Shown: positions 1 to 23,150, counted from the first letter of the stretch. The stretch is DNA of 41,962 nucleotides from Candidatus Zixiibacteriota bacterium (GCA_024278515.1 JAJRTA010000118.1:1-41962); one strand, 5' to 3'. A program made the numbers and translations. Notes: generated by a model from the letters alone, not told the origin.

Positions 1-2402
1 ACTTTGCCGGTACGGGTGTCGACAGTCACTTCGGCGATCTGGGTGCCATAAGCTATCGGATGATACGCGTTCCCCTGTCCGGTTCGCGGGTCGAGCGGCT
101 GTGTGTACTGATCACCCTTGAATATAGACTCGCGGCGAAGCGGCTTACCGAAACGTTCAAAAGAACTGAATAACCCGGATGCGGATATGCTTCTTGAATT
201 GTCCTGGCTGCAGGTTGCTGCGCCGTTTTTGAGAACGACCTGGTTCTCATCACACTCAAGAAGTCGGGCCGCGACGGTCAGGATATCGACGCGTAAGCGA
301 TCGCAGGCCATTTTGATCGCGTTACCGGTGATAAAGGTCTGACGGGTTGCAACCGTGGAGCCGCAGTTGGGGGTGGTGTCGGAATCACCGGTGACCATCT
401 CAATATCAGCCGGTTTCAGCCCCAGCGTTTCGGCGGCGATTTGCGGAAAAATAGTGTTGGCCCCCTGACCATAATCGACCGTCGAAACAAACACCCGTGC
501 CTTACCCTCTCTGGTCAACTCGACAATAGCGTTGCCGCGATCGGGAATACCGGCCCCGAAACCGATACCGTACCACAGGGAGGCAATCCCCCGTCCGCGA
601 CGAAGATGCGGGGACTCGATCACGGTGTGTTCGAATTTCTTGTTCCATTCTGCTTTGTCGGCGGCCAGTTCAATTGTTTTGCGGCCGGGGGTGGTTTGAA
701 CAACCTGACCGGTGGCTGTTTTCGAGCCGGGCTGGAATGAGTTCAGCATTCGCAGTTCCAGTGGGTCCATGTTCAGTTTTTCAGCCAGTGAATCAAGCAG
801 CGATTCCGAGGCGAACACTGCCTGCGGAGTGCCGAACCCGCGCATCGCGCCGCAGAAGATATTGTTGGTGTACACCGAGACACCATGCACGCGCACATTG
901 GGGATCTCGTAAGGGCCGCTCACATGCACACAGATTTTGCGCAGGATATTCTGCCCCCACGAGGCATAAGCGCCGGTGTCGGAAAGCACGTCTGCTTTGA
1001 AAGCTGTCAGCCTGCCTTCGCTGGTGGCTCCCACGCGAATCCTCATCCGCACCGGGTGGCGTTTCTGGGTGGTTCGGAATGTCTCCTCGCGGCTGTAACG
1101 TGTTCTTACCGGTCGTCGGGTCAAAAAAGCGGCCAGGGCGCAGTGAATCTGCCCGTACACATCCTCACGCTTGCCGAATGCTCCGCCCACCGGCGGTTGA
1201 ATCACACGGACATCGTCTTTGGGCAGGCCCAGCGCCCGGATGATGTTCAGGCGGTCGAAAAAGACATGCTGAGTCGGCGCCTTGACACAGAGTTTACCGT
1301 TCTCATCGAAATAAGCCAGAGCGGCCTCCGGTTCAAGCTGGGCATGATCGACGCGGGTGGTTGAAAACTCATCTTCCACCACTACATCAGCTTGCCGGAA
1401 ACCTTCATCGATATCCCCCTTGATTATATTGAACTCATAAAGCAGGTTGCCCTTCGGATGAATCTTCGGCGCGTCTTTATCCAGCGACCGTTCCATATCG
1501 AACAACGGATCCAGGTCTTCATACTCGACTTTCACCGCCTCGCAACCGGCTCGCGCTGTTTCATAACTGTCGGCCACGACCAGGGCGACAGCATCGGCGT
1601 AAGAGCGCACTTTATCTTCGGCCAGCACCGGAATGTCACGGATGATCTTGCCGTATCGGTTGTCGCCCGGAATATCGGCGGCTGTGATTACTCGCGCCAC
1701 TCCGGGCAGTCTTATAGCTGCGCTGGTGTCGATTGATTTGATCAGGGCGTGGGGACGTTCGGATCGTTTGGCGACAAGATACAAACATCCTTCCGGATCG
1801 GGCAGATCATCGGTGAACAGCGCCCGCCCGGTGACAAGAGCGACCGCGTCACGGCGCGGCACTGACTGTCCCACCCATGAAGTATCCCGGTCGGGCCCGA
1901 CCAGTTCAAGTCCCTCAGCGATCCGGTCTTTCGGCAGTTGCCCTGAAGCCTGTTTAACGGCGTCGATAATCGGCTGGTAGCCGGTGCAGCGACAGAGATT
2001 GACCCGCATCGCATGTTTGATGGCGCGCTCATCCGGGGTCGGGTTTTCATCGAGCAACGCCTTGGCGGTCATGATCATGCCGGGGGTACAAAAACCGCAC
2101 TGGCAACCCTGACGGTCGACAAAGGCCTGCTGCAACGGGTGCAGAGTACCGTCGGACGAGAGATTCTCGATTGTCTCAATTATCGAGTTGTTCAGCTTTT
2201 CCGGGAGTACAGTACAGGAGCGAACAGCTTTACCGTTCATGATCACAGTGCAGCATCCGCAGGTACCCACGTTACACCCGCACTTGGTCCCGGTCAGGTG
2301 AAGCCGTTCGCGCAGAATATCCAGCAGAGACTGATCGGCGGGCACTTCCAATGAATGCGCTGAGCCGTTGACGGTTATTTGAATGCTGGTTGTATCAGTC
2401 AT
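1..2402 (-). CDS. Xanthine dehydrogenase family protein: N-terminal [2Fe-2S] domain fused to molybdopterin-binding (large) subunit; truncated at window edge
   Basis: Minus-strand reading from ATG at 2402: MTDTTSIQITVNGSAHSLEVPADQSLLDILRERLHLTGTKCGCNVGTCGCCTVIMNG...CQCGFCTPGMIMTAKALL...CRCTGYQPI, continuing into ...VPRRDAVALVTGRALFTDDLPDPEG...QPPVGGAFGKRED...GAMRGFGTPQAVFASE... No stop before the window edge, so absent from the ORF track. Confidence 0.9.
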   Translation of the reverse strand, partial: MTDTTSIQITVNGSAHSLEVPADQSLLDILRERLHLTGTKCGCNVGTCGCCTVIMNGKAVRSCTVLPEKLNNSIIETIENLSSDGTLHPLQQAFVDRQGCQCGFCTPGMIMTAKALLDENPTPDERAIKHAMRVNLCRCTGYQPIIDAVKQASGQLPKDRIAEGLELVGPDRDTSWVGQSVPRRDAVALVTGRALFTDDLPDPEGCLYLVAKRSERPHALIKSIDTSAAIRLPGVARVITAADIPGDNRYGKIIRDIPVLAEDKVRSYADAVALVVADSYETARAGCEAVKVEYEDLDPLFDMERSLDKDAPKIHPKGNLLYEFNIIKGDIDEGFRQADVVVEDEFSTTRVDHAQLEPEAALAYFDENGKLCVKAPTQHVFFDRLNIIRALGLPKDDVRVIQPPVGGAFGKREDVYGQIHCALAAFLTRRPVRTRYSREETFRTTQKRHPVRMRIRVGATSEGRLTAFKADVLSDTGAYASWGQNILRKICVHVSGPYEIPNVRVHGVSVYTNNIFCGAMRGFGTPQAVFASESLLDSLAEKLNMDPLELRMLNSFQPGSKTATGQVVQTTPGRKTIELAADKAEWNKKFEHTVIESPHLRRGRGIASLWYGIGFGAGIPDRGNAIVELTREGKARVFVSTVDYGQGANTIFPQIAAETLGLKPADIEMVTGDSDTTPNCGSTVATRQTFITGNAIKMACDRLRVDILTVAARLLECDENQVVLKNGAATCSQDNSRSISASGLFSSFERFGKPLRRESIFKGDQYTQPLDPRTGQGNAYHPIAYGTQIAEVTVDTRTGK

Positions 2403-2482
2403 GCAGAATGATAGAACCGATGAATGGAAATGTCAAGATAACCACCGGTTGTGAAGGGATGGTTTCAGTTTGTACGAACGGT

Positions 2483-3409
2483 TTATCCCGCCGTTGCTTG
2501 TTTCGGTTTGGGCGTGTCCTTAAGGCGGACAACCTCGGTCGACTGATCTGATAGTTGCAGTAGGCGGTCGATAACATCATCAATGAGAAATTGTGGTGTT
2601 GAGGCTCCGGCTGAAACACCCACCCTTGTGACACCGGCATCCGGGTCAAACCATTCCGGTTTTATATCCGCGGCAGTTTCAATCAGCATCCCTTTACCGC
2701 AGGCATCGGCAGAGAGCGAGGCCAGACGTTTGGAGTTGGCCGAGGTTTGCGAACCTACCACCAGGATCATATCAACAAGCGGAGCCATTTCCATGATGGA
2801 GTCCTGCCGCTGGGTGGTGGCGTTACAGATCGTATTGAAAACTTCTATTTGCGGCCACTTCGTAAGCGCCAGTTTTTCAACTTCTCTGAACTGCCGGGAA
2901 TGAGCGGTGGTTTGTACTGTCAGTCCGAGTTTTCTATTTGGCCAGTCCGGCAGGGCGAGCAGTTCTTCATGGCTGGCGGCAACCGTGATACGGTCGGGAG
3001 CGTGACCTACTATCCCGGCTGTTTCATCGTGATGCGGATCTCCGTAATGAATAATGTACAGTCCATCGGCGATAGCTTTATTGATTATCCGGTAGATACG
3101 TGTCACCAGGGGACAGGTGGCATCGATAACTTCCAGCCCCTTCGATCGGGCCGCCTCGATGGTGCCCGGAGCGATCCCGTGGGCGGAGATAATCAAAAGA
3201 CCGGAATCGACATCATCGAGCGAAGTCGCCTGACCGACACCGCGCCTGCGAAAACCATCCACCACAGCCTCGTTGTGAACTATTTCATTCAGGATAGTCA
3301 CCGCGCTGTTTTGACCTCGGGTCTCAGCGGTTTCATCGGCTATCTTGATGGCGCGTTCGACTCCCATACAGAAGCCCTGGTAACGGGCCAGTACTATTTT
3401 CTTTATCAT
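2483..3409 (-). CDS. ispH: 4-hydroxy-3-methylbut-2-enyl diphosphate reductase
   Basis: MIKKIVLARYQGFCMGVERAIKIADE..., DATCPLVTRIY, GDPHHDETAGIVGHAP, ICNATTQRQ, VGSQTSANSKRL; IspH/LytB family. Confidence 0.95.
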   Translation of the reverse strand: MIKKIVLARYQGFCMGVERAIKIADETAETRGQNSAVTILNEIVHNEAVVDGFRRRGVGQATSLDDVDSGLLIISAHGIAPGTIEAARSKGLEVIDATCPLVTRIYRIINKAIADGLYIIHYGDPHHDETAGIVGHAPDRITVAASHEELLALPDWPNRKLGLTVQTTAHSRQFREVEKLALTKWPQIEVFNTICNATTQRQDSIMEMAPLVDMILVVGSQTSANSKRLASLSADACGKGMLIETAADIKPEWFDPDAGVTRVGVSAGASTPQFLIDDVIDRLLQLSDQSTEVVRLKDTPKPKQATAG

Positions 3410-3489
3410 GACAGTATGGACTTATTGTATCGCTTTCCTTACGGTTGCTCAGATCGTGTTAAACCACTCAAGCGTCGATTTCCCCGCCG

Positions 3490-3531
3490 GGGAGGAGTTC
3501 CATAGTCCGGGCAGATATGGAGACTCCTCCC
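3490..3531. repeat. Long imperfect inverted repeat (GGGAGGAGT-TCCATA ... TATGGA-g-ACTCCTCCC)
   Basis: Arms of 9+6 bp with one bulged base; between pdxT and ispH, about 80 bp upstream of the ispH start. Confidence 0.75.
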
Positions 3532-3602
3532 GTTGACGGGAAAAACTCTCCAGCCGACCCGGCGGCGTATTAAAGACTTTTCTTGTCCATCAATCATACG
3601 CT

Positions 3603-4205
3603 TTAACTCCTCTTTTGCTCAAAGAAATCTTCGAGAAAATACTCAAGCAGGCGGGTATCGTCATCAAGCTCGGCGTGAAAACTGCCGGCCAGCAAGCGTC
3701 CCTGCCTGACCAGCACCGGCGAGTCCTTATACACGGCCAGCGCCTCAACTTCAGAGCCGCAGCGAATGATGCGCGGCGCCCGAATGAAAGTTGTTTCCAG
3801 ATGTAATGAAGCTCCGTTGAGAGTGACGGTTATCGTGTCGGTGAATGAAAAAATCTGTCGGCCGTAACCGTTACGAACAACATCGATATCCATTAGTCGC
3901 AAAGGCTCGATACCGGCCTGATTGTTCTCGATTTTGTTTGCCAGCATGATCATCCCGGCGCAGGTTCCCCAGATCGGTTTGTCATCAGCGAATTCAATCA
4001 GCGGTCGGCGCATATCAAACCGGTCGATCAGGTAGTTCATCGTGGTAGACTCACCGCCCGGGATTATCAAACCGTCAAGATCGCTTAGATCTTCTGCAAG
4101 ACGCACTTGTTTCGGTCTGGCGCCGGCCAGCCTTAGCTGGTGTTCATGACGTTCGAAATCTCCCTGCAGGGCAAGAACGCCTATGGTTTTATTCTTTCTT
4201 GTCAT
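3603..4205 (-). CDS. pdxT: Pyridoxal 5'-phosphate synthase glutaminase subunit PdxT
   Basis: MTRKNKTIGVLALQGDFERHEHQLRLAGARPKQVR...GLIIPGGESTTMNYL...PIWGTCAGMIMLA; the ORF track extends to 4235 but the family N-terminus fits the internal ATG at 4205. Confidence 0.93.
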   Translation of the reverse strand: MTRKNKTIGVLALQGDFERHEHQLRLAGARPKQVRLAEDLSDLDGLIIPGGESTTMNYLIDRFDMRRPLIEFADDKPIWGTCAGMIMLANKIENNQAGIEPLRLMDIDVVRNGYGRQIFSFTDTITVTLNGASLHLETTFIRAPRIIRCGSEVEALAVYKDSPVLVRQGRLLAGSFHAELDDDTRLLEYFLEDFFEQKRS

Positions 4206-4389: not shown

Positions 4390-6369
4390 TCAGGTATCGG
4401 CGGTCCGTTTTGGGCTTATATTATCTTCTGAGTCGGGGATGACCTTCTCATCGCTGCTTTTGGTTTCTGCCATCTTTCTTTCCAGTTCGAGAATGACCGG
4501 ATCCTCAGGATGCTCATGGCGATACTTGTCAAGCGGCATCTTACCGGAATACCAAGCCGGGTTCATCGGGTAGGTCCCGGGATTGAAAACAGTAGCGTAC
4601 AGATGCCAGACCATTATAGCCAGTGTGGCCAGCCAGGCCTCATAAAAATGAACGACCAGGGCGACATCGAGAATATATTTTGGGAACCAGGCAACAACCC
4701 TGTTGTCAAACCACAGCAGCAGCCCGGTGGCCACCATTATTATCGTCCCCCAGACCAGCGCCCAGTATTCGGCTTTTTCGATATACGCAAACCGTCCAAA
4801 CCGGGGCTTTTCCTTCACCAGCCCGAGATTGTACCCGACCAACTGAAAGGCTTGTTTCAGGTCGGTCACCGTCGGGATCATATCCTTGAGAAATCCCCGC
4901 CCGCGGGCTGTTGTCAGATACAATAGATGCCATACCGTTGTGAACATCAGCATCACCGCTGAAATCCGGTGGATGGTTCCGCGCAGTTCAAACCCGCCTT
5001 CCCAGCCGAACAGCATCTTAACCCATAGAGAATCAGAGTAACGCAGGGCGAAACCTGAAATTACCAGCGAAATAAACGAGACTGTGAGGAAAGTGTGCTG
5101 CCAGACCTCCTGTCGGGTCATCCGGACTATCTGCGGTCCCTTGCTGACTTTCTGGATTTCTTTGCGGAGGTCGATCAGCCAGTGAAGGACCATGCCGCCG
5201 ATGACCAGCAGGATCAGCCATATATAGATATTTTTGACGATATTGGCCAGCTTGTTGTCGGTCAGGCCGGGGTCTCCGTGAATAGGAGTGCGGGCAATCT
5301 CGGCTGAGATTCCCGGGTGGCAGGTGCCGCAGGTCTGGCTGAGATTGTCCGGATGAATCGAAGAAGTCGGATCGTTCTGGTTGAGAATACGATGGGCGCC
5401 ATGACAGGAGGCGCAGTTAGCTACTGCTTTGTCGCCCGCCTGACTCTTGAGACCGTGATAACTGTCTACATAGCTGTGCTGTTCGCCGGTTGGTATGTTA
5501 TACTTTTCGTTAAGCGCAGCCGACTCATGACAGGGTTCACAGGTGGCCTCGGCGATACGATTCGGGCTTACCGGTGAACGGGGGTCGCTGGCTGCGATAA
5601 TCCCATGTTCGCCATGACAGTGAGTACAAACAGGGGCGTCCACTTCCCCCTGCTGGACCAGTTGACCATGAACTCCCTCCCAGAAATCCCGTTCGATACG
5701 CTTGTGGCATTTCCCGCAGGTACGAGGAATATTGAAATGGTTGACCGACGATTCCTGATGATTCGCGGCCAGAATATGGTGCGAACTTCCGCCGGGTGAG
5801 TGGCAATCGACACAAGTAGCCGCGGAATACACACCCCCGACTTTGGTCTGACCGTGTACCGAACTCTGGTAAACCCGGACCGCCTGACCATAGAGCGTTT
5901 TGTGTTTTGCCGTCAGGTCGAGATTCTCATGGCACTGACCGCAGGTGGACGGAAGATTGATAGGGTTGACACGAGACAGCTTACTGCTCGGACTGAGAAT
6001 GTTGTGACGTCCATGGCAATCGGCGCACCCGGGGATATCGACACCTTCCGCGGTAGTGAGCCGACCGTGCCACTGGTAATCTTCGCTGACATCGGAATGG
6101 CAATCACCACATTCGACTTTGTCCACCGTTTCCTCGTGAGGCAGTTCTTCGATTGAACTGTGGCAATCGACACAACTGAATCCTTCATGCACGGAACCGG
6201 ACAGAGCTGAATCGAATGGCTGCGCATCGTGATCGTCGGATTCCTCGTGACAATCCAAACACAGCGTCGTTCCGTCACCAATATCATCCTGAGACCAGGC
6301 CGGTACTGCTAATAGTATCATCGCAAATAATAGCAGGGACCAGAAACTGAAACGAACTTTTCGTGTCAT
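4390..6369 (-). CDS. Multiheme (11 CXXCH) cytochrome c with C-terminal cytochrome-b561-like membrane domain
   Basis: Signal peptide; 11 CXXCH motifs counted (CLDCH, CVDCH, CGDCH, CADCH, CGQCH, CVDCH, CGKCH, CTHCH, CEPCH, CASCH, CGTCH), then multiple hydrophobic segments with paired His (IHRISAV...VWHLLY; VVHFYEAWLAT...VWHLYATVF). Confidence 0.9.
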   Translation of the reverse strand: MTRKVRFSFWSLLLFAMILLAVPAWSQDDIGDGTTLCLDCHEESDDHDAQPFDSALSGSVHEGFSCVDCHSSIEELPHEETVDKVECGDCHSDVSEDYQWHGRLTTAEGVDIPGCADCHGRHNILSPSSKLSRVNPINLPSTCGQCHENLDLTAKHKTLYGQAVRVYQSSVHGQTKVGGVYSAATCVDCHSPGGSSHHILAANHQESSVNHFNIPRTCGKCHKRIERDFWEGVHGQLVQQGEVDAPVCTHCHGEHGIIAASDPRSPVSPNRIAEATCEPCHESAALNEKYNIPTGEQHSYVDSYHGLKSQAGDKAVANCASCHGAHRILNQNDPTSSIHPDNLSQTCGTCHPGISAEIARTPIHGDPGLTDNKLANIVKNIYIWLILLVIGGMVLHWLIDLRKEIQKVSKGPQIVRMTRQEVWQHTFLTVSFISLVISGFALRYSDSLWVKMLFGWEGGFELRGTIHRISAVMLMFTTVWHLLYLTTARGRGFLKDMIPTVTDLKQAFQLVGYNLGLVKEKPRFGRFAYIEKAEYWALVWGTIIMVATGLLLWFDNRVVAWFPKYILDVALVVHFYEAWLATLAIMVWHLYATVFNPGTYPMNPAWYSGKMPLDKYRHEHPEDPVILELERKMAETKSSDEKVIPDSEDNISPKRTADT

Positions 6370-6831: not shown

Positions 6832-9669
6832 ATGGAAGACGAAGGTAAAGAGAGTATTGTGAAAAAGATACCGAGCAGTATCCTCAATTCAACGATTTGC
6901 GCAATCCTGTTGCTTCTGATGGGTTCATTTGCGGCGGCTCAGGAGGCAGATGACTGCCTGGCCTGTCATGAGGACCCGGACCTGACAAAAATGCGCAAAG
7001 GGAGAGAAATCTCTCTCTACATCGACATAGACAAATACCGCCAGTCCGTTCATGGCGAATGGGAGTGTATTGACTGCCATGCCGACCTGGCCGATGTTGA
7101 CTTTCCTCATGATGAAGAGGTTGAGCCGGTTGACTGCTCCATGTGTCACGATGATATAGCGGAAACCTACATGGCCAGTTTGCACGGGCGCCTGGTGGAA
7201 AAGGGAGAGGATCTGGCCCCGCAGTGCTGGGACTGTCATGGCGCACACGACATAGTAGGCCCGGACAATCCGTCATCGGCGGTGACGAAATTCAATATCC
7301 CGATTATGTGCGGGCGCTGCCACAAAGAGGGGTCCGAGGTAACCCGCGCTTATGATATTCCCGAAGACAGTGTTCTGTACAATTACTCGCTGTCAATTCA
7401 TGGTATCGGACTTTTCAAACAGGGCCTGACTGTTACCGCTGTTTGCAGTGACTGCCATACTGCTCATAATGTACGTAATCATACCGATCCGCAATCATCC
7501 ATTCATCGGGACAATGTGGCCGCTACCTGTCAGAAATGCCACGGCCAGATCGAGAAAGTGCACCGCAAAATAATAAAGGGCGAACTTTGGGAAAAGAAAC
7601 CGGAGCAGGTTCCGGTTTGCGTGGATTGCCACTCGCCGCACCGGATCAGACGAGTGCTGTACAAAGAAGGAATCTCCGATCAGGAATGTATGGAATGCCA
7701 CTCCGATCCGAACCTCTCATTGGTTCGCGACGGGGAGAGCATATCGCTTTATGTCGATTCGGTCGAAGTTCATGGATCGACCCATCGGAATACCGGCTGT
7801 GCCCAGTGTCATACCGGTACGACTCCGCGCCTGGACCGACCGTGCGCTACCGTGGCCACCGAGGTGGATTGTGCCAACTGTCATTCGGAGGTGGCGATTT
7901 CCTACCGGACAGGGATGCACGGAACTCTGGCCGAGCGGGGTGATCCGGATGCGCCCGTATGCAAGGACTGCCACGGCGTTCACGGAATCCGTAAACATAC
8001 CGACAGAAACTCACCAACTTATCCGACCAATGTCCCGGACCTGTGCGGAAAATGTCACCGGCATGGAAACAAAGCGGCGGTCAGATATGAAAACGGAAAC
8101 GGCGGCCACGAACTTCCCGATTATATCGTAAAGAACTATACCATGTCGATCCATGGCAAGGGTCTTTTGCAATCGGGTCTTGTAGTGACCGCGATGTGCA
8201 CCGATTGTCACACTGCGCACCACGTGCTTCCGCACGAAGATCCAGAATCGAGTGTCAACGACGACAACATTGCCAAAACCTGCGCCAAGTGTCATAATGG
8301 AATCTACGAGCAGTTCACCAACAGCATTCACTCGCCGACTGTTTCGGAGACTACGGAACGATTACCCAACTGTAAGGATTGTCATCAATCGCACACAATC
8401 AGCCGGGCCGACAAGGTGAACTTTCGTCTGAACATAAGAAACCAGTGCGGTATCTGCCACGAGGATGTTACCGAGAGCTATTTTGAGACTTTCCACGGCA
8501 AAGTTTCCAAGCTTGGATACGCGGAGGCGGCGCAGTGTTATGATTGTCACGGCTCTCACAACATCCTGCCGCCGGGGGAACCGGGATCGACCTTGTCACA
8601 TCAGAACATTGTTGCGACTTGCGGTAAATGTCATGAGGGATCGCATCGTCAGTTCGCCGGTTATCTTACTCATGCCACCCACCATGATCGCGACAAGTAC
8701 CCCATACTGTTTTATACTTTCTGGTTCATGACCACGTTGCTGGTCGGCACCCTGGCGGTGGCGATTACGCATACTTTATTGTGGCTGCCGCGCTCTTTCC
8801 AGGCTATGCGACAGCATAAGAAGAGACGCGCCGAAATGCGCGGGCAACTGCAATACCGACGATTCAAACCGTTGCACAGCCGCCTGCATATACTTGTTGT
8901 CCTGAGTTTTCTCGGTCTTGCTCTGACCGGCATGACCCTGAAGTTTTCCTATCTGAGCTGGGCGCAGTGGATTTCCGGAGTATTGGGCGGCTTCGAGTCA
9001 GCCGGGTTTATCCATCGGGTGTGTGCTGTTATAACGTTCTTCTATTTCGGTACGCATCTTTTCGATCTTATCCGACAGTATCGTAAGAAACGGTCGCCTA
9101 TAAAAGAGATGCTGAGCTCTCCCTATTCCATGGTTCCGACCTGGAATGATGCGAAAGAACTTTACGCCACCCTCAAATGGTTCATCGGTATCGGCCCCCG
9201 TCCCGCCTATGGACGCTGGACCTACTGGGAGAAGTTCGATTACTTTGCGGTTTTCTGGGGCGTCGCGATAATCGGATCTACCGGCCTTATGCTGTGGTTC
9301 CCGGAATACTTTACCTATATCCTTCCGGGCTGGATAATCAATGTGGCGACAATTATCCACTCGGATGAAGCCCTGCTGGCTACGGCGTTTATTTTCACCG
9401 TACATTTCTTCAACACTCATTTCCGCCCGGACAAGTTCCCGATGGATACCGTTATATTTACCGGCCGCATGCCACTGGAAGAACTCAGGCTGGAGCGACC
9501 GCGTGAATATAACCATCTTGTCAAAACCCACCAGTTGAGAAAGCATTTGGTCGAACCCCTGCCGCCGGCTATGGAACGGACCGCCCGGATTTTCGGCGCA
9601 ATTGCTTTGACTGTCGGGATTTCAATTATCCTTCTGATTATCTATGCTGAGATCTTCGGTTATCGATAG
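6832..9669 (+). CDS. Multiheme (19 CXXCH) cytochrome c with C-terminal cytochrome-b561-like membrane domain
   Basis: 945 aa with signal-like N-terminus; 19 CXXCH motifs counted; C-terminal hydrophobic domain ending HFFNTHFRPDKFPMDTVIFTGRMPLEEL, paralogous to the 11-heme protein ending (VFNPGTYPMNPAWYSGKMPLDKY). Confidence 0.9.
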   Translation: MEDEGKESIVKKIPSSILNSTICAILLLLMGSFAAAQEADDCLACHEDPDLTKMRKGREISLYIDIDKYRQSVHGEWECIDCHADLADVDFPHDEEVEPVDCSMCHDDIAETYMASLHGRLVEKGEDLAPQCWDCHGAHDIVGPDNPSSAVTKFNIPIMCGRCHKEGSEVTRAYDIPEDSVLYNYSLSIHGIGLFKQGLTVTAVCSDCHTAHNVRNHTDPQSSIHRDNVAATCQKCHGQIEKVHRKIIKGELWEKKPEQVPVCVDCHSPHRIRRVLYKEGISDQECMECHSDPNLSLVRDGESISLYVDSVEVHGSTHRNTGCAQCHTGTTPRLDRPCATVATEVDCANCHSEVAISYRTGMHGTLAERGDPDAPVCKDCHGVHGIRKHTDRNSPTYPTNVPDLCGKCHRHGNKAAVRYENGNGGHELPDYIVKNYTMSIHGKGLLQSGLVVTAMCTDCHTAHHVLPHEDPESSVNDDNIAKTCAKCHNGIYEQFTNSIHSPTVSETTERLPNCKDCHQSHTISRADKVNFRLNIRNQCGICHEDVTESYFETFHGKVSKLGYAEAAQCYDCHGSHNILPPGEPGSTLSHQNIVATCGKCHEGSHRQFAGYLTHATHHDRDKYPILFYTFWFMTTLLVGTLAVAITHTLLWLPRSFQAMRQHKKRRAEMRGQLQYRRFKPLHSRLHILVVLSFLGLALTGMTLKFSYLSWAQWISGVLGGFESAGFIHRVCAVITFFYFGTHLFDLIRQYRKKRSPIKEMLSSPYSMVPTWNDAKELYATLKWFIGIGPRPAYGRWTYWEKFDYFAVFWGVAIIGSTGLMLWFPEYFTYILPGWIINVATIIHSDEALLATAFIFTVHFFNTHFRPDKFPMDTVIFTGRMPLEELRLERPREYNHLVKTHQLRKHLVEPLPPAMERTARIFGAIALTVGISIILLIIYAEIFGYR

Positions 9670-16977: not shown

Positions 16978-17293
16978 GCGCGACCATCGCCCTAAGTTGT
17001 TGCCGTAAATAGAGAAAAGGCGCCCCGGGAAGGACGCCTTCACTCTTACGAAGACAAAGACAGAGAGGTATGTTGAAACTTTCTAAATATCAGTCAAATC
17101 TAATTCATTCAATTCTTATAACACAAGATCGACCAAAATGGTTCATGTTTATAGCAAATAATAATAGAATTAACAAAAAAACACAACATTTATTGTCTTA
17201 TTTGAGGCCGAAAGGCCATATCTTAAAAAGTCGGCCGGTAATATTCACACAATACGGTCGTACGACCGGCTGAAAACCTGAATACGTTGTGCC

Positions 17294-17340: not shown

Positions 17341-18741
17341 TTATTCGGCGTAACGTTTCCTGAACTCTTCAGCAGCTTTTTTGCGGGCTGCTTTCACTTC
17401 AGCAGGTTCGTTGCCGGTGAACCATTTGTGCTGATCCATCTCGAACACTTCAGCAACCATCTTTTCAACTTCCTCGGCCGCGGTTGCTTTGTCTCCGCCT
17501 TCTGTTTTGGCCTTTTCCACGATCTCCATCACTTCCGGGATGAACTCCATGTAGAACCGTTCGGCTATCTCGTAGAACCCATGCCACTGAGTGTAATCAG
17601 GGGCGAACATAGCAGCGCCCATCCGCGCGCGACGGCCTTCGTGATGCCATAGATAGAAGTAGGTCCATTCCAGCTTGTCATCAAAAGCGATGTCGTTGGT
17701 GATAAGTCCGCTGGAACGAACCTTTTTGTATATTCTGGTGGCGGGGACGGCAAACTTGTCGTTGTACAGATTCACCGCACCGTCATACTGGACGTAGAAG
17801 TTTTTGACGTAGTTGGAAGTATGACAGTTGGCGCAGACCTTTTGCATATCACTGCGGCGGCTTTCCCATGATTTGGTTTGTTTTCCTTTGGCCCTGGCGG
17901 CGGCATCGATTTTTTGCGACACCGGCGGGCGCAATGTCCAACTGATCCGGTCACCCACGTCGTGAGTAAGCGGCAGATCCCGGGTGGCTGACATGTGGCA
18001 GGTCGCACAGGTCGGCGCCGCGGAGTAATCAATGCCTACTACCCAGGAGGCGTTGCCCAGATTCATCCGGTCAATGTTGGCGTAGTACGCGATACCGTGC
18101 TTGGATTCTTCAAAGATCTCTTTCTGCGGGTGGTCCGGCCCAAGATGACACTTGCCGCAGTTTTCCGGCTGACGAGCCAGCGCCGCGTCGAAAGAATGCC
18201 GTGAGTGACAGGCCGCGCAGGACCCCTTGGAACCGTCCGGGTTGATTCGGCCCATCCCGGTATTCGGCCAGGTATCCGGGTCAAGACTGCCGTCATCGTT
18301 GACCTTTACAATCGAACCATGGCACTGCTTGCATCCGTTGACAGCCGCGGCCGGCCCTTCAACCACTTCACCGAGCACGTTGTCCAGCGAACCGAGAATC
18401 TTACCGGCGTCGGCATGGTGCGATTTCTGAAACTCATCATACTCCTGCTGGTGACATTTCGAACAATCCTTGGGGGATACGATCACCGCGATGTTGAACC
18501 CGTTGTGCTCGATCAGGTCGGCATCTCCCTCGTTGGCCGCGTGACATTCATAACAACCGACATCAGCCGCATAATGCCGGCTGTGACGCCACTCCCCGGT
18601 CATCCCCGGCATATCGGCCTCGTGGCATTCCACGCACGCCGCCGATTCCTCGGACAATGATGCCGGTACCGAACGTCCCTGTCCGATTACGACTGATGCA
18701 GCCATCATGCTGATCACGACGAATAAGCTGATCTGTTTCAT
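17341..18741 (-). CDS. Octaheme cytochrome c, hydroxylamine oxidoreductase (HAO)-like
   Basis: Signal peptide; 8 CXXCH (CVECH, CYECH, CSKCH, CKQCH, CAACH, CGKCH, CATCH, CANCH); HAO-family features VIVSPKDCSKCHQQEYDEFQKSHHA, SKHGIAY, PTCATCHMSA, LWHHEGRRARMGAAMFAPDYTQWHGFYE. Confidence 0.88.
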   Translation of the reverse strand: MKQISLFVVISMMAASVVIGQGRSVPASLSEESAACVECHEADMPGMTGEWRHSRHYAADVGCYECHAANEGDADLIEHNGFNIAVIVSPKDCSKCHQQEYDEFQKSHHADAGKILGSLDNVLGEVVEGPAAAVNGCKQCHGSIVKVNDDGSLDPDTWPNTGMGRINPDGSKGSCAACHSRHSFDAALARQPENCGKCHLGPDHPQKEIFEESKHGIAYYANIDRMNLGNASWVVGIDYSAAPTCATCHMSATRDLPLTHDVGDRISWTLRPPVSQKIDAAARAKGKQTKSWESRRSDMQKVCANCHTSNYVKNFYVQYDGAVNLYNDKFAVPATRIYKKVRSSGLITNDIAFDDKLEWTYFYLWHHEGRRARMGAAMFAPDYTQWHGFYEIAERFYMEFIPEVMEIVEKAKTEGGDKATAAEEVEKMVAEVFEMDQHKWFTGNEPAEVKAARKKAAEEFRKRYAE

Positions 18742-18910
18742 AGAGCAACCCTTTCCTCTGCTTTGAACCTTGACATATCCTTTGTCTTTTTGAATTGTCC
18801 GACTTTTTTGTTAAGAGCACGAATACAACTCTTGACGCCATTAACGACAACTCCTGTTGTGCTCGGCCTGGCACAGATAAAAAAACGGGCGTTGCCACAG
18901 GAAACAAATA

Positions 18911-18945
18911 AAAAAAGGCCACCCCGTCAAAGGGCGACCTTTTTT
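18911..18945 (-). terminator. Rho-independent terminator between porin-like and HAO-like genes
   Basis: AAAAAAGGCCACCCC gtcaaa GGGCGACCTTTTTT; on the minus strand, a hairpin followed by a T run. Confidence 0.75.
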
Positions 18946-18962
18946 GTCGAGTATTTACCAGA

Positions 18963-20285
18963 TCAGAAATTCACAGTAGCCATGGTGTAGAACCACAACC
19001 CCGGATCGGTATCGGTGGCGCCGGTATAAGCCATTTTGAAATCATCATCAGCCAGGAAAATCGAGGCGCCTCCCTGCAGATGAAGACCGTCAATCACAGT
19101 AGTGCTGACTGTCGCGTCCAGCTCAATCCCCACCTTCTTGGAATAGACTGTGGAGCCTTCATCGGTAAAGTACATGTAATCCTTGTCGGTCGAGAAGAAA
19201 TGGGCGTCCAGAGCGGCCTTCCATCCTTCATACGGGGAGCCGGAGGCCCGGAGGATGAAATCAACCAGCCCGGCATTGGCGTACGGTAGACCGGCCTTGG
19301 CGGCGTCAACAAAGTAATCCATGTACCCGTTGAACTTGTGCGCGGTCGGATAAAGATTGTTGTACGCCTTGAATTTGTCATCATCAGGATCGTCGTCGCC
19401 CGAGGTGTAATCAATACCGGCGGCGATACGAGCCTTGAACGGAGCCTCAAAAGTATAACCGGCTTCGAAGGCAAACATGTAAGCGGCGATATCGATCTTG
19501 TCTTTGTTGGCTCCGGTCAGCGGATTGTAAAGTCCCCGCGGCTGCTGACCCCACTGGTAGACGCCGTTGAACTCAAAGTCCAGTTTCAGGTCTTCATAGA
19601 CCCGTTTGAAGTAGGCCCCGGCGTTGAGACGGTCGAGCCTGTTCATATTGTACCAGTACCCGGTGGTGTCGGCGTCATATTCATAGAACCAGAACAAATC
19701 AAGGTTGTATGGTTTGTAAGTCGCATAAACACCGCCTGCGTCGAAATCAGCATGATAGTACGGGTTATTCTTTTCGGTAGCCTTGAGACCGAAACCGGTG
19801 ATGCGGAACTTTTCCTGGTCGTACCAGCCGATTCCGCCTTCCCATACCCGACCGACATTATCCCAGCCGACCGCACCGAAGACACGCTCGTTGCCGAAAT
19901 TGACTTCGAACCGACCGATTTTCATCCCGAGTCCGTCGACCAGTAAGCGATCGACCTGAATATAAGCCTGATGGACATCGACATTCTTGCCGTCATTCAG
20001 ACCGGACGAGGCCGGTTTGCCGAACTGTGTGTTGCCGCCCATCAATCGGCTGTCCTGGAACTGAATAAAGGCGTGAGTATTATTGTCAACAATCGCTTCC
20101 ACACCGAATCGTGTCCGCAGATTCGCGTATGTCAGGAATGTCTTGGCCGTGTCGAAATCCCGTTTATCGATCTCTTCACGCAGCCTGATCTGCCCAGAGA
20201 ACTTAAATTCGGTGTCGGCGTTCACGGGAACAGCCACCGCGATCATCACGGCAAACAATATAAGTCCCTTAACAAAGCTTTTCAC
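18963..20285 (-). CDS. Outer-membrane beta-barrel porin-like protein (alginate-export/porin type)
   Basis: Signal peptide MKSFVKGLILFAVMIAVAVPVNA; FKFSGQIRLREEIDKRDFD, alternating amphipathic strands, ending WFYTMATVNF with C-terminal aromatic. Confidence 0.78.
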   Translation of the reverse strand: MKSFVKGLILFAVMIAVAVPVNADTEFKFSGQIRLREEIDKRDFDTAKTFLTYANLRTRFGVEAIVDNNTHAFIQFQDSRLMGGNTQFGKPASSGLNDGKNVDVHQAYIQVDRLLVDGLGMKIGRFEVNFGNERVFGAVGWDNVGRVWEGGIGWYDQEKFRITGFGLKATEKNNPYYHADFDAGGVYATYKPYNLDLFWFYEYDADTTGYWYNMNRLDRLNAGAYFKRVYEDLKLDFEFNGVYQWGQQPRGLYNPLTGANKDKIDIAAYMFAFEAGYTFEAPFKARIAAGIDYTSGDDDPDDDKFKAYNNLYPTAHKFNGYMDYFVDAAKAGLPYANAGLVDFILRASGSPYEGWKAALDAHFFSTDKDYMYFTDEGSTVYSKKVGIELDATVSTTVIDGLHLQGGASIFLADDDFKMAYTGATDTDPGLWFYTMATVNF

Positions 20286-20530
20286 CTGTTCTTCTCCTTT
20301 ATTATGGCGTTCTATATCCTATTGGCACACCTTCCGACAGCAATGCGACCGCACGGACACACAACTGCCCTAAAATCAGGCCGATAATAAGAACTGGTCG
20401 TATAACCCGCAAGCTAAAAAACAGCTAATTTCTACAACCTGCTGTAGCTGAATTTTCATAGCCAATGAAAAGATATAGGATGTGAACATCCGGTTGTCCC
20501 ACCGGGAGGGTAGCACCGAGTTTCTGTTTC

Positions 20531-20549
20531 CTGTTCAACTTTTGAACAG
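20531..20549. promoter_or_regulatory. Perfect inverted repeat CTGTTCAA-ctt-TTGAACAG, candidate operator
   Basis: 8-bp arms, 3-nt spacer, in the intergenic region between the divergent porin gene and the 206-aa gene. Confidence 0.45.
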
Positions 20550-21482: not shown

Positions 21483-21544
21483 AATCAACGGCAGCTTCTG
21501 CCGATAATGTACGGGACGGAGTATGTGTACGAATATGAGTGTTT

Positions 21545-22558
21545 ATGTCTGTGAATAAGCCGCAACCATCTTCTCCAGCTCACCGGTCGGAACATGATTC
21601 GGGGGAACAGCAGTTTATCCCGATCTACCTGGACTGCCTGCGGGTCGATTCGATACTCGACTTCGATCTGTTTCTTCGGATCAACAGCGGGATGGTGCTA
21701 TATCGCTCGGCCGATCTGCCCTTCACCGAGCGGACCCGCCAGAGACTGCTTGAAAACAAGGTCGACCGGCTTTATGTCAAGGGGGAAGCCAAAGGCAACT
21801 ACCAGCGTTATATCGAACAGAATCTCGACAAGGTGCTGGTCGATCCGCATATCCCGGAGAAAAAGAAAGCCAGTATCCTGTATGAAACATCCAAAGGGCT
21901 GGTGAAAGATATATTCGACAATCCGACCTATGGCGATAAAGTCAAACGCTCTCAGGAACTGGTCAGTACAACGGTCGGGTATATCCTGAGATGACAGGAG
22001 GCATTTCATAATCTGCTGAAGATCACCTCGTTCGACTACTATACTTACACTCACTCGGTCAATGTCTGTACTTTTTCTCTTGCTCTTGCTCAGCAGATGG
22101 GGCAGAAGGACGAACAGTTTCTTCATGAACTCGGAACCGGCGCGCTGCTGCACGACCTGGGTAAATCAAGGATTTCCGAGCGGATTATCAACAAACGGTC
22201 GGCCCTCAACCCGTACGAATTCGAAATCATGAAAAAACACCCTAAATGGGGGGTGGAGATACTCGAAGGGGATGAGGATTTCGCTTCCAACTCCGTCTAT
22301 CCGGTGCTTCAGCACCATGAGCGGGGGGACCGTTCCGGTTATCCGAACGGTATTAACTTTTCCGAGATGCATATTTTCTCCAGAATCGTGGCTATCGCCG
22401 ATACTTTCGATGCCATGACCACAGAACGCGTTTACCAGAAAGCGATCGACAGTTTCCCCTGCCTGAAAATCATGTTTTCGATGAAACAAGCCTACGACCA
22501 GCATATTCTTCGCTGTTTCGCGGAACTGATGGGGCCGAGCGGTCTGCTTGAAATCTGA
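21545..22558 (+). pseudogene. HD-GYP domain signalling protein interrupted by an in-frame TGA at 21992-21994
   Basis: Upstream part MSVNKPQ...FIPIYLDCLRVDSILDFDLFLRINSGMVLYRSADLPFTE...SQELVSTTVGYILR, TGA, then in the same frame QEAFHNLLKITSFDYYTYTHSVNVCTFSLALAQQMGQKDEQFLHELGTGALLHDLGKSRISERI...HHERGDRSGYPNG... Confidence 0.8.
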
Positions 22559-22706: not shown

Positions 22707-23150
22707 ATGAGTCGCAGGAAGAATAAAGTATCGGTCAGTATCGTCTATTGCGTGGAGTGAAACTATCTCCCTAAGGCGGCCGGTCTGGCCGCTGTAATTG
22801 AAAAGCAGGTGGGAATTGCCGCCAACTTGGTCGAAGGGAGCGGTGGAATACTTGAAGTGCAAATCGACAACAAACTGGTTTACACCAACAAGGGAAATAA
22901 AGCCGAGGAATATCCGGGAGATGAAGAGATCGTGAAAAGACTTGAACATATCGTACCGGTTGTTCAGTCACTGGAACAACCCCGATCCAAAGATATGGTT
23001 GACGGCAGTAACACACCGAGCAACCCGATAGAACCACCCCCGGTGGTCAAGCCGCCGGACAAAGAAAAACGGACGGCCATTGACGAAATGAGTTTCGCCT
23101 GTAATTGCGCTCCGGTGACCGGCCCGGAAGGTTGCAGTTGCCGCAACTGA
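22707..23150 (+). CDS. SelW/Rdx-family (thioredoxin-fold) selenoprotein, 147 aa, UGA at 22758-22760 read as selenocysteine (CVEU motif)
   Basis: MSRRKNKVSVSIVYCVE-U-NYLPKAAGLAAVIEKQVGIAANLVEGSGGILEVQIDNKLVYTNKG...; the residue order YCxxU-NY-P-A...LVEGxGGxxEVxxDxKLVY is the Rdx family pattern; continuous frame on both sides of TGA. Confidence 0.85.
22776..22792 (+). promoter_or_regulatory. Candidate bacterial SECIS hairpin GCGGCC-GGTCT-GGCCGC, 15 nt downstream of the UGA
   Basis: 6-bp all-GC stem with loop GGUCU, closely matching the AGGUCU apical loop of the E. coli fdhF SECIS. Confidence 0.72.

Follow-up and report, generated by a model that had tools for sequence, protein, structure and literature searches.

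A porin gene and an octaheme cytochrome gene, adjacent in the genome of a Candidatus Zixiibacteriota bacterium, probably form a nitrite-ammonification module. The module would be of the eHao type, already known, and its co-selected porin would admit nitrite or nitrate. We hold this reading with moderate, rather than high, confidence. The observations that carry it are gene content and order, the fold of the cytochrome, a missing cross-linking tyrosine, linkage of the porin with HAO-family genes, and once with nrfHA, and a site shared among relatives. Note that enzymes of this class have been described before. What appears to be new is the pairing with a porin, the exchange of HAO for nrfHA beside that porin, and the HcpR-type site common to relatives. 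In searches that covered mainly journals open without subscription, we found no literature connecting a porin with nitrite reduction of HAO or Nrf type, or tying HcpR sites to HAO genes.

The DNA analysed, referred to here as the window, is the whole of contig C82 (41,962 nucleotides), from a Zixibacteria-type genome of 2.86 Mb that is 99% complete. Relevant features are listed in Table 1. The named relatives closest to the octaheme protein are encoded by other Candidatus Zixiibacteriota genomes (70-78% identity). A previous sequence-only reading of this DNA placed a porin-like gene, a terminator and an HAO-like gene in that order on the coding strand. This is correct, with all three on the minus strand and 221 bp between the two genes. 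The porin-like protein has the length claimed and matches Pfam Alginate_exp, and the HAO-like protein has both the 8 CXXCH motifs and the C-terminal segment quoted. The absence of an adjoining NrfH/cM552-type partner is also borne out in the window. Furthermore, neither a quinol dehydrogenase gene nor any nitrate or nitrite gene adjoins the pair in the window. On one flank are the housekeeping genes FKBP, purA, engB and lon; on the other is an HD-domain gene. Two quinol-linked multiheme fusions had been noted nearby, and these correspond to cytochrome b561 fusions about 8-13 kb away. The fusions are likely quinone-linked. We dropped them as electron donors for the HAO-family protein because no link between such fusions and HAO was seen in relatives.

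Table 1. Position and strand of the porin-octaheme pair, its hairpins and the two cytochrome b561 fusions in the window
Feature	Position	Strand	Evidence
Outer-membrane beta-barrel porin, Alginate_exp type, 440 aa, upstream gene of pair	18963-20285	minus	PF13372 4.5e-25
Intrinsic terminator, porin/octaheme intergenic	18945-18911	minus	15-bp stem + T-run, -22.7 kcal/mol
Octaheme HAO-family cytochrome c, 466 aa, predicted periplasmic nitrite reductase	17341-18741	minus	8 CXXCH
Terminator-like hairpin, downstream of octaheme gene	17016-17041	minus	pattern scan only
Multiheme cytochrome-cytochrome b561 (Ni_hydr_CYTB) fusion	4390-6369	minus	
Multiheme cytochrome-cytochrome b561 (Ni_hydr_CYTB) fusion	6832-9669	plus	

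Some other features of the region are recorded here in their own right. The flanking HD-domain (HD-GYP-like) gene (21539-22558, plus strand) is broken by an in-frame TGA at 21992-21994. The homologue in locus L077 (6270-7253) is intact, and the TGA could mark a pseudogene, an assembly error or recoding. Further along the plus strand, 22707-23149 is a candidate Rdx/SelW-type selenoprotein gene. When the TGA at 22758-22760 is read as selenocysteine the product contains VYCVEUNYLPKA (CxxU), and the read-through product matches Pfam Rdx (1.2e-10). In some relatives, molybdopterin genes (PF00384) contain one in-frame TGA, and the lineage may use selenocysteine. Finally, a perfect palindrome, CTGTTCAA-CTT-TTGAACAG, lies at 20530-20548, approximately 245 bp upstream of the porin start.

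The octaheme protein belongs to the HAO family. It matches Pfam Multi-haem_cyto (1.2e-24), well over the cut-off, and has exactly 8 CXXCH motifs (at residues 36, 63, 93, 137, 175, 195, 245 and 303). Its best solved relative is the Ignicoccus hospitalis octaheme cytochrome, IhOCC (PDB 4qo5; 5.7e-50). An AF2 model built from a 92-member alignment has a pLDDT of 93.1, and supersedes a poor model (pLDDT 59) made from 19 sequences. Compared with the PDB using Foldseek, the later model gave 11 matches at E<=0.001. All were HAO-family structures, which upholds the family assignment of the sequence-only reading, and the modelled protein has an HAO fold. The top match was again 4qo5, followed by the Kuenenia reducing Kustc0457/0458 complex (PDB 6h5l). 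Pentaheme NrfA structures, which represent a different fold class, gave no match to the model (E about 0.7 or worse). The protein sequence contains no CXXCK motif. An identity as NrfA, ONR or OTR was rejected because both the CXXCK motif and an NrfA-type fold are missing. The distal Asp-His pair of the catalytic heme is kept, with Asp203 in 92/92 and His204 in 88/92 relatives. Two cases of a second HAO-family gene are worth recording. The same genome encodes a second HAO-family octaheme protein, from a different clade, in a gene truncated by the end of contig C25 (L060, 1-896, minus strand). Grimontia celer (L086) has its HAO gene twice, at 2160-3641 and 7672-9153, with about 4 kb between.

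Absence of the cross-linking tyrosine is the accepted mark of reducing HAO forms (PMC3701875, PMC5317091). In Nitrosomonas HAO this residue is Tyr467, within GGWTYTEGW. A single-sequence search left the Tyr467 column unsettled, and a 56-residue HAO fragment matched only Nitrosomonas HAO. We used a C-terminal alignment from a mixed-clade profile, counting residue positions from chain numbers in the alignment. The references for the column were Nitrosomonas HAO, Kustc0458 and IhOCC. The sequence-only reading had proposed this comparison. The tyrosine is absent; Tyr467 aligns with Gln385 (APDYTQWHG), in a stretch without gaps that runs from Trp465 to Gly470. The column holds Trp in Kustc0458 and Thr in IhOCC. 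Among 92 relatives it holds Gln in 44, His in 30, Trp in 11, Leu in 3, Phe in 1 and a gap in 3, and Tyr in none. Since Gln385 occupies the column here, and Gln, His or Trp do so in 85/92 relatives, the alignment points to reduction, not oxidation. A second tyrosine, Tyr383, lies two residues from the column and is present in 87/92 relatives. It aligns with Trp465 of Nitrosomonas HAO, a Trp of IhOCC and a Val of Kustc0458. Hence, by alignment, Tyr383 appears not to be the same residue as Tyr467. The protein lacks the cross-linking tyrosine of the oxidising HAO/HDH (P460) group. A nitrogen-oxide redox module, preferred in the sequence-only reading, is supported and narrows to the reducing, Tyr-less, eHao-like side.

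HAO-family proteins are found in 65 phyla and, as of 2022, most of those outside ammonia oxidisers, anammox bacteria and Campylobacterota had no assigned function (PMC9213671). A role for Tyr-less HAO as nitrite reductase has experimental support in Campylobacterota and is inferred for Caldithrix and Deferribacteres (PMC3701875, PMC5317091, PMC6896113). The eHao proteins of Campylobacterota (Nautilia, Campylobacter) and of Caldithrix abyssi are likewise octaheme HAO-family proteins without the cross-linking tyrosine. Their carriers are nitrate-reducing organisms without NrfA (PMC3701875, PMC5317091). C. abyssi converts nitrate to ammonium with Nap and eHao, and without NrfA (PMC5317091). There are differences. 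Campylobacterota eHao has a NapC/NrfH-type partner, cM552, whereas here the linked partner is a porin and the quinol partner is unlinked. In addition, nitrate reduction in the window's own genome would fall to NarGH. Compared with solved structures, IhOCC is the closest by both sequence and fold, and it too lacks Tyr at the cross-link column. However, it is archaeal and has Val in place of His204. The second-best match, Kustc0457/Kustc0458, shares the HAO fold at approximately 20% identity. Kustc0458 is a Kuenenia anammox enzyme that reduces nitrite to NO.

We turn now to the porin. The gene has a GTG start, and the protein has a signal-like N-terminus, a C-terminal Phe and a PF13372 score of 88.7 bits (gathering cut-off 25.2). 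In 133 genomes of the phylum, the porin is found in 60, HAO of clades A-C in 76, and both in 46 (Fisher 3e-5, uncorrected for phylogeny); 30 of the 76 HAO genomes have no recognisable porin. The two genes adjoin in 27 of the 133. Because the same order recurs in all 27, with the porin immediately upstream on the same strand, the arrangement is not due to chance. HAO genes of clades B and C also have the porin as a partner, in different settings, and the porin-linked state changes at least 9 times on the HAO tree. Outside Zixibacteria, the porin lies within three genes of HAO in 9/72 loci, compared with 0 further away, and gene order is varied, with both orders seen. Seven porins from such loci were checked, together with that of genome G022 described below, and all are of Alginate_exp type. 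Note that the linkage is, judging by gene order, in part synteny; in family f1 the porin gene is flanked by argF and an hslU/LiaF-like region in genomes with an HAO insertion and in those without. Porin homologues tied to unrelated uptake would have counted against the sequence-only reading. What we found did not refute it, although several relatives have the porin without HAO at the argF site. In one Zixibacteria genome without HAO (G022; L171, 5682-10405), the porin directly precedes nrfH, nrfA and a gene for a NapH-like protein; an Rrf2 regulator is encoded upstream. Hence, NrfHA takes the place of HAO beside the same porin. This is the only one of six NrfA genomes to pair nrfA with the porin.

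The terminator between the two genes has a z-score of -3.2, and 1/200 shuffles fold as well. A similar hairpin terminator was found in another genome of the same genus (G002) and in G036. Conversely, the same scan found none in relatives with short gaps, of 31-96 bp, between porin and HAO genes. These short-gap pairs look co-transcribed. In the window's lineage, the hairpin probably causes porin expression to exceed, or separate from, HAO expression. A role in setting porin:HAO stoichiometry is possible. It is not a general property across relatives, since many of those with short gaps have no terminator that we could find.

Intergenic regions of relatives contain a perfect palindrome, TTGACnnnnGTCAA. 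In Zixibacteria regions it lies upstream of HAO in 9/28 and of the porin in 6/28, compared with 2/376 for other genes, both within HAO loci. It also precedes nrfHA (G063, L203), napD-napA (G012, L190) and stand-alone porins (L176 and L184; genomes G025 and G043). The palindrome matches the published consensus, wyTTGACnnnnGTCAArw, for HcpR, which belongs to the FNR family and regulates nitrogen-oxide genes (PMC1274295). It is absent near the porin and HAO genes of the window, where the best copy has 3 mismatches. Hence, evidence for co-regulation of porin and HAO comes from relatives, not from the window's own genome. The C25 HAO paralogue does have an HcpR-type site upstream, with one mismatch.

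A genome scan returned hundreds of octaheme relatives, and we read the surroundings of 80. These belong to Pseudomonadota, Bacteroidota, Planctomycetota, Verrucomicrobiota, Nitrospirota, Nitrospinota, Calditrichota and others; Shewanella nanhaiensis is a cultivated carrier. In Vibrio, Shewanella, Neiella and their kin, a NapC/NrfH-type tetraheme gene lies beside HAO. Elsewhere, HAO neighbours include a Rieske protein with cytochrome b, NarK, NapA with NapG, NapH and NapB, or a tetraheme with NrfC/DsrO-like and NrfD/DsrP-like subunits. Genes for Rrf2 regulators are also found nearby. A second Zixibacteria HAO clade has an operon encoding a Crp/Fnr regulator, ferredoxin, a NapH-like protein, porin, HAO and a NapC-like pentaheme. 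Taken by gene content, such neighbourhoods are settings for quinol-linked nitrate and nitrite respiration. Enrichment of NapA, NapB and NapH near HAO was not significant against a far-gene control, and for these genes we report occurrence only. The missing enrichment is probably explained by Nap operons running past three genes.

Nitrogen partners were also sought in the window's own genome, as the sequence-only reading had suggested. NarG, NarH and NarK are encoded, together with an Rrf2 regulator, on contig C49. The NarG score is 1507 bits (cut-off 1084), although NarG and its NxrA relatives cannot be told apart by homology alone. No NrfA scored above the cut-off, and the weak matches in this genome come from one subunit encoded in an alternative complex III cluster. 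The cd1 nitrite reductase NirS was not found in this genome, and a NirK-like match is a multicopper oxidase (66 bits, compared with a cut-off of 296). AMO was not detected in this genome by a search that was also silent in control genomes. Since NirS and NrfA were not found, and the NirK-like match is weak, either the window protein or the C25 paralogue is the only obvious candidate for a periplasmic nitrite reductase. Two possible electron donors are encoded elsewhere in the genome: a NapC/ImcH-like six-heme quinol dehydrogenase candidate (contig C130, unlinked) and the alternative complex III cluster (contig C185).

For substrate, direction, product, electron donor and porin cargo we infer the following scheme. 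Nitrate would be converted to nitrite elsewhere, by NarGH with NarK in this genome and by Nap in relatives. Nitrite or nitrate would pass the outer membrane via the Alginate_exp-type porin. Reduction of nitrite would then take place in the periplasm, on the octaheme cytochrome, with ammonium the most likely product and perhaps some hydroxylamine or NO. The predicted reaction site is heme 4, which would be five-coordinate, be served by the Asp203/His204 pair and lack a Tyr cross-link. Electrons would come from the quinol pool by way of a donor of NapC/NrfH/ImcH type, Rieske/cytochrome b or alternative complex III. In this genome the donor would be unlinked, with the C130 ImcH-like cytochrome and the C185 complex as candidates.

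Other explanations were weighed against this scheme. The porin could be a general nutrient porin, its pairing with HAO being the inherited, and functionally meaningless, synteny of one lineage. The fixed position of the f1 porin, with or without HAO, is consistent with this. However, the pairing recurs across HAO clades, flanking genes and phyla, and with nrfHA. Moreover, both gene orders occur outside Zixibacteria, and stand-alone porins in G025 and G043 bear the HcpR-type site. We consider this explanation somewhat unlikely. Logically, a porin adjoining a multiheme cytochrome might also be a conduit that moves electrons across the outer membrane, which the sequence-only reading had listed as less likely. 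This found no support, and we give it almost no credence. The modelled cytochrome shows the fold of a catalytic HAO and keeps the conserved Asp-His pair. The porin is a 440-residue Alginate_exp barrel that also partners nrfHA, and no surface cytochrome of the kind expected for MtrAB or Ext systems was seen among the neighbours.

The remaining alternatives concern the enzyme. The octaheme protein might be a reductase for nitrogen-oxide detoxification, countering NO, hydroxylamine or nitrite stress rather than serving respiratory ammonification, with the porin incidental. The palindrome in relatives is of HcpR type, and HcpR is associated with Hcp and with stress from nitrogen oxides. Rrf2 regulators are nearby, and no quinol dehydrogenase is linked in the window. 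Conversely, linkage of HAO with NapC/NrfH, Rieske/cytochrome b, NapA and NarK fits respiration better, as does the same site upstream of nap and nrfHA in relatives. On this evidence detoxification is unlikely. A sulfur, selenium or tellurium oxyanion is very improbable as the substrate. Tharpellota HAO-family proteins, with function unassigned, have been proposed to reduce sulfur species (PMC9213671). ExtI of Geobacter sulfurreducens is an outer-membrane porin whose gene lies with cytochrome genes; it is needed for efficient oxyanion reduction, and affects reduction of selenite and tellurite (PMC5877670). One relative's neighbouring cytochrome b resembles ExtP, with a score below the cut-off. 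Yet HAO neighbours are the nitrate and nitrite genes Nap, NarK and NapGH, and the window porin matches no Ext-type model. An oxidising hydroxylamine or hydrazine dehydrogenase is more improbable again. Family membership, and a widely conserved Tyr383 close to the cross-link column, might be taken to suggest one. However, the column itself holds Gln, Tyr383 aligns with Trp465, and no AMO was found, although that search was silent in controls too.

The ammonification module with its co-selected porin can be taken a step further. An HcpR-controlled, dedicated nitrite or nitrate porin may be a regular part of ammonification in this region of the bacterial tree, interchangeable between HAO-type and NrfHA-type systems, with outer-membrane entry both selected and regulated. 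We put this forward tentatively, as possible rather than probable. The HAO neighbourhoods, and the shared nitrogen-oxide site, argue that a large Tyr-less lineage reduces nitrite in place of NrfA. If Tyr-less HAO does replace NrfA, surveys using only nrfA would miss much ammonification. The porin partner, in turn, suggests that entry of nitrite across the outer membrane is a selected step.
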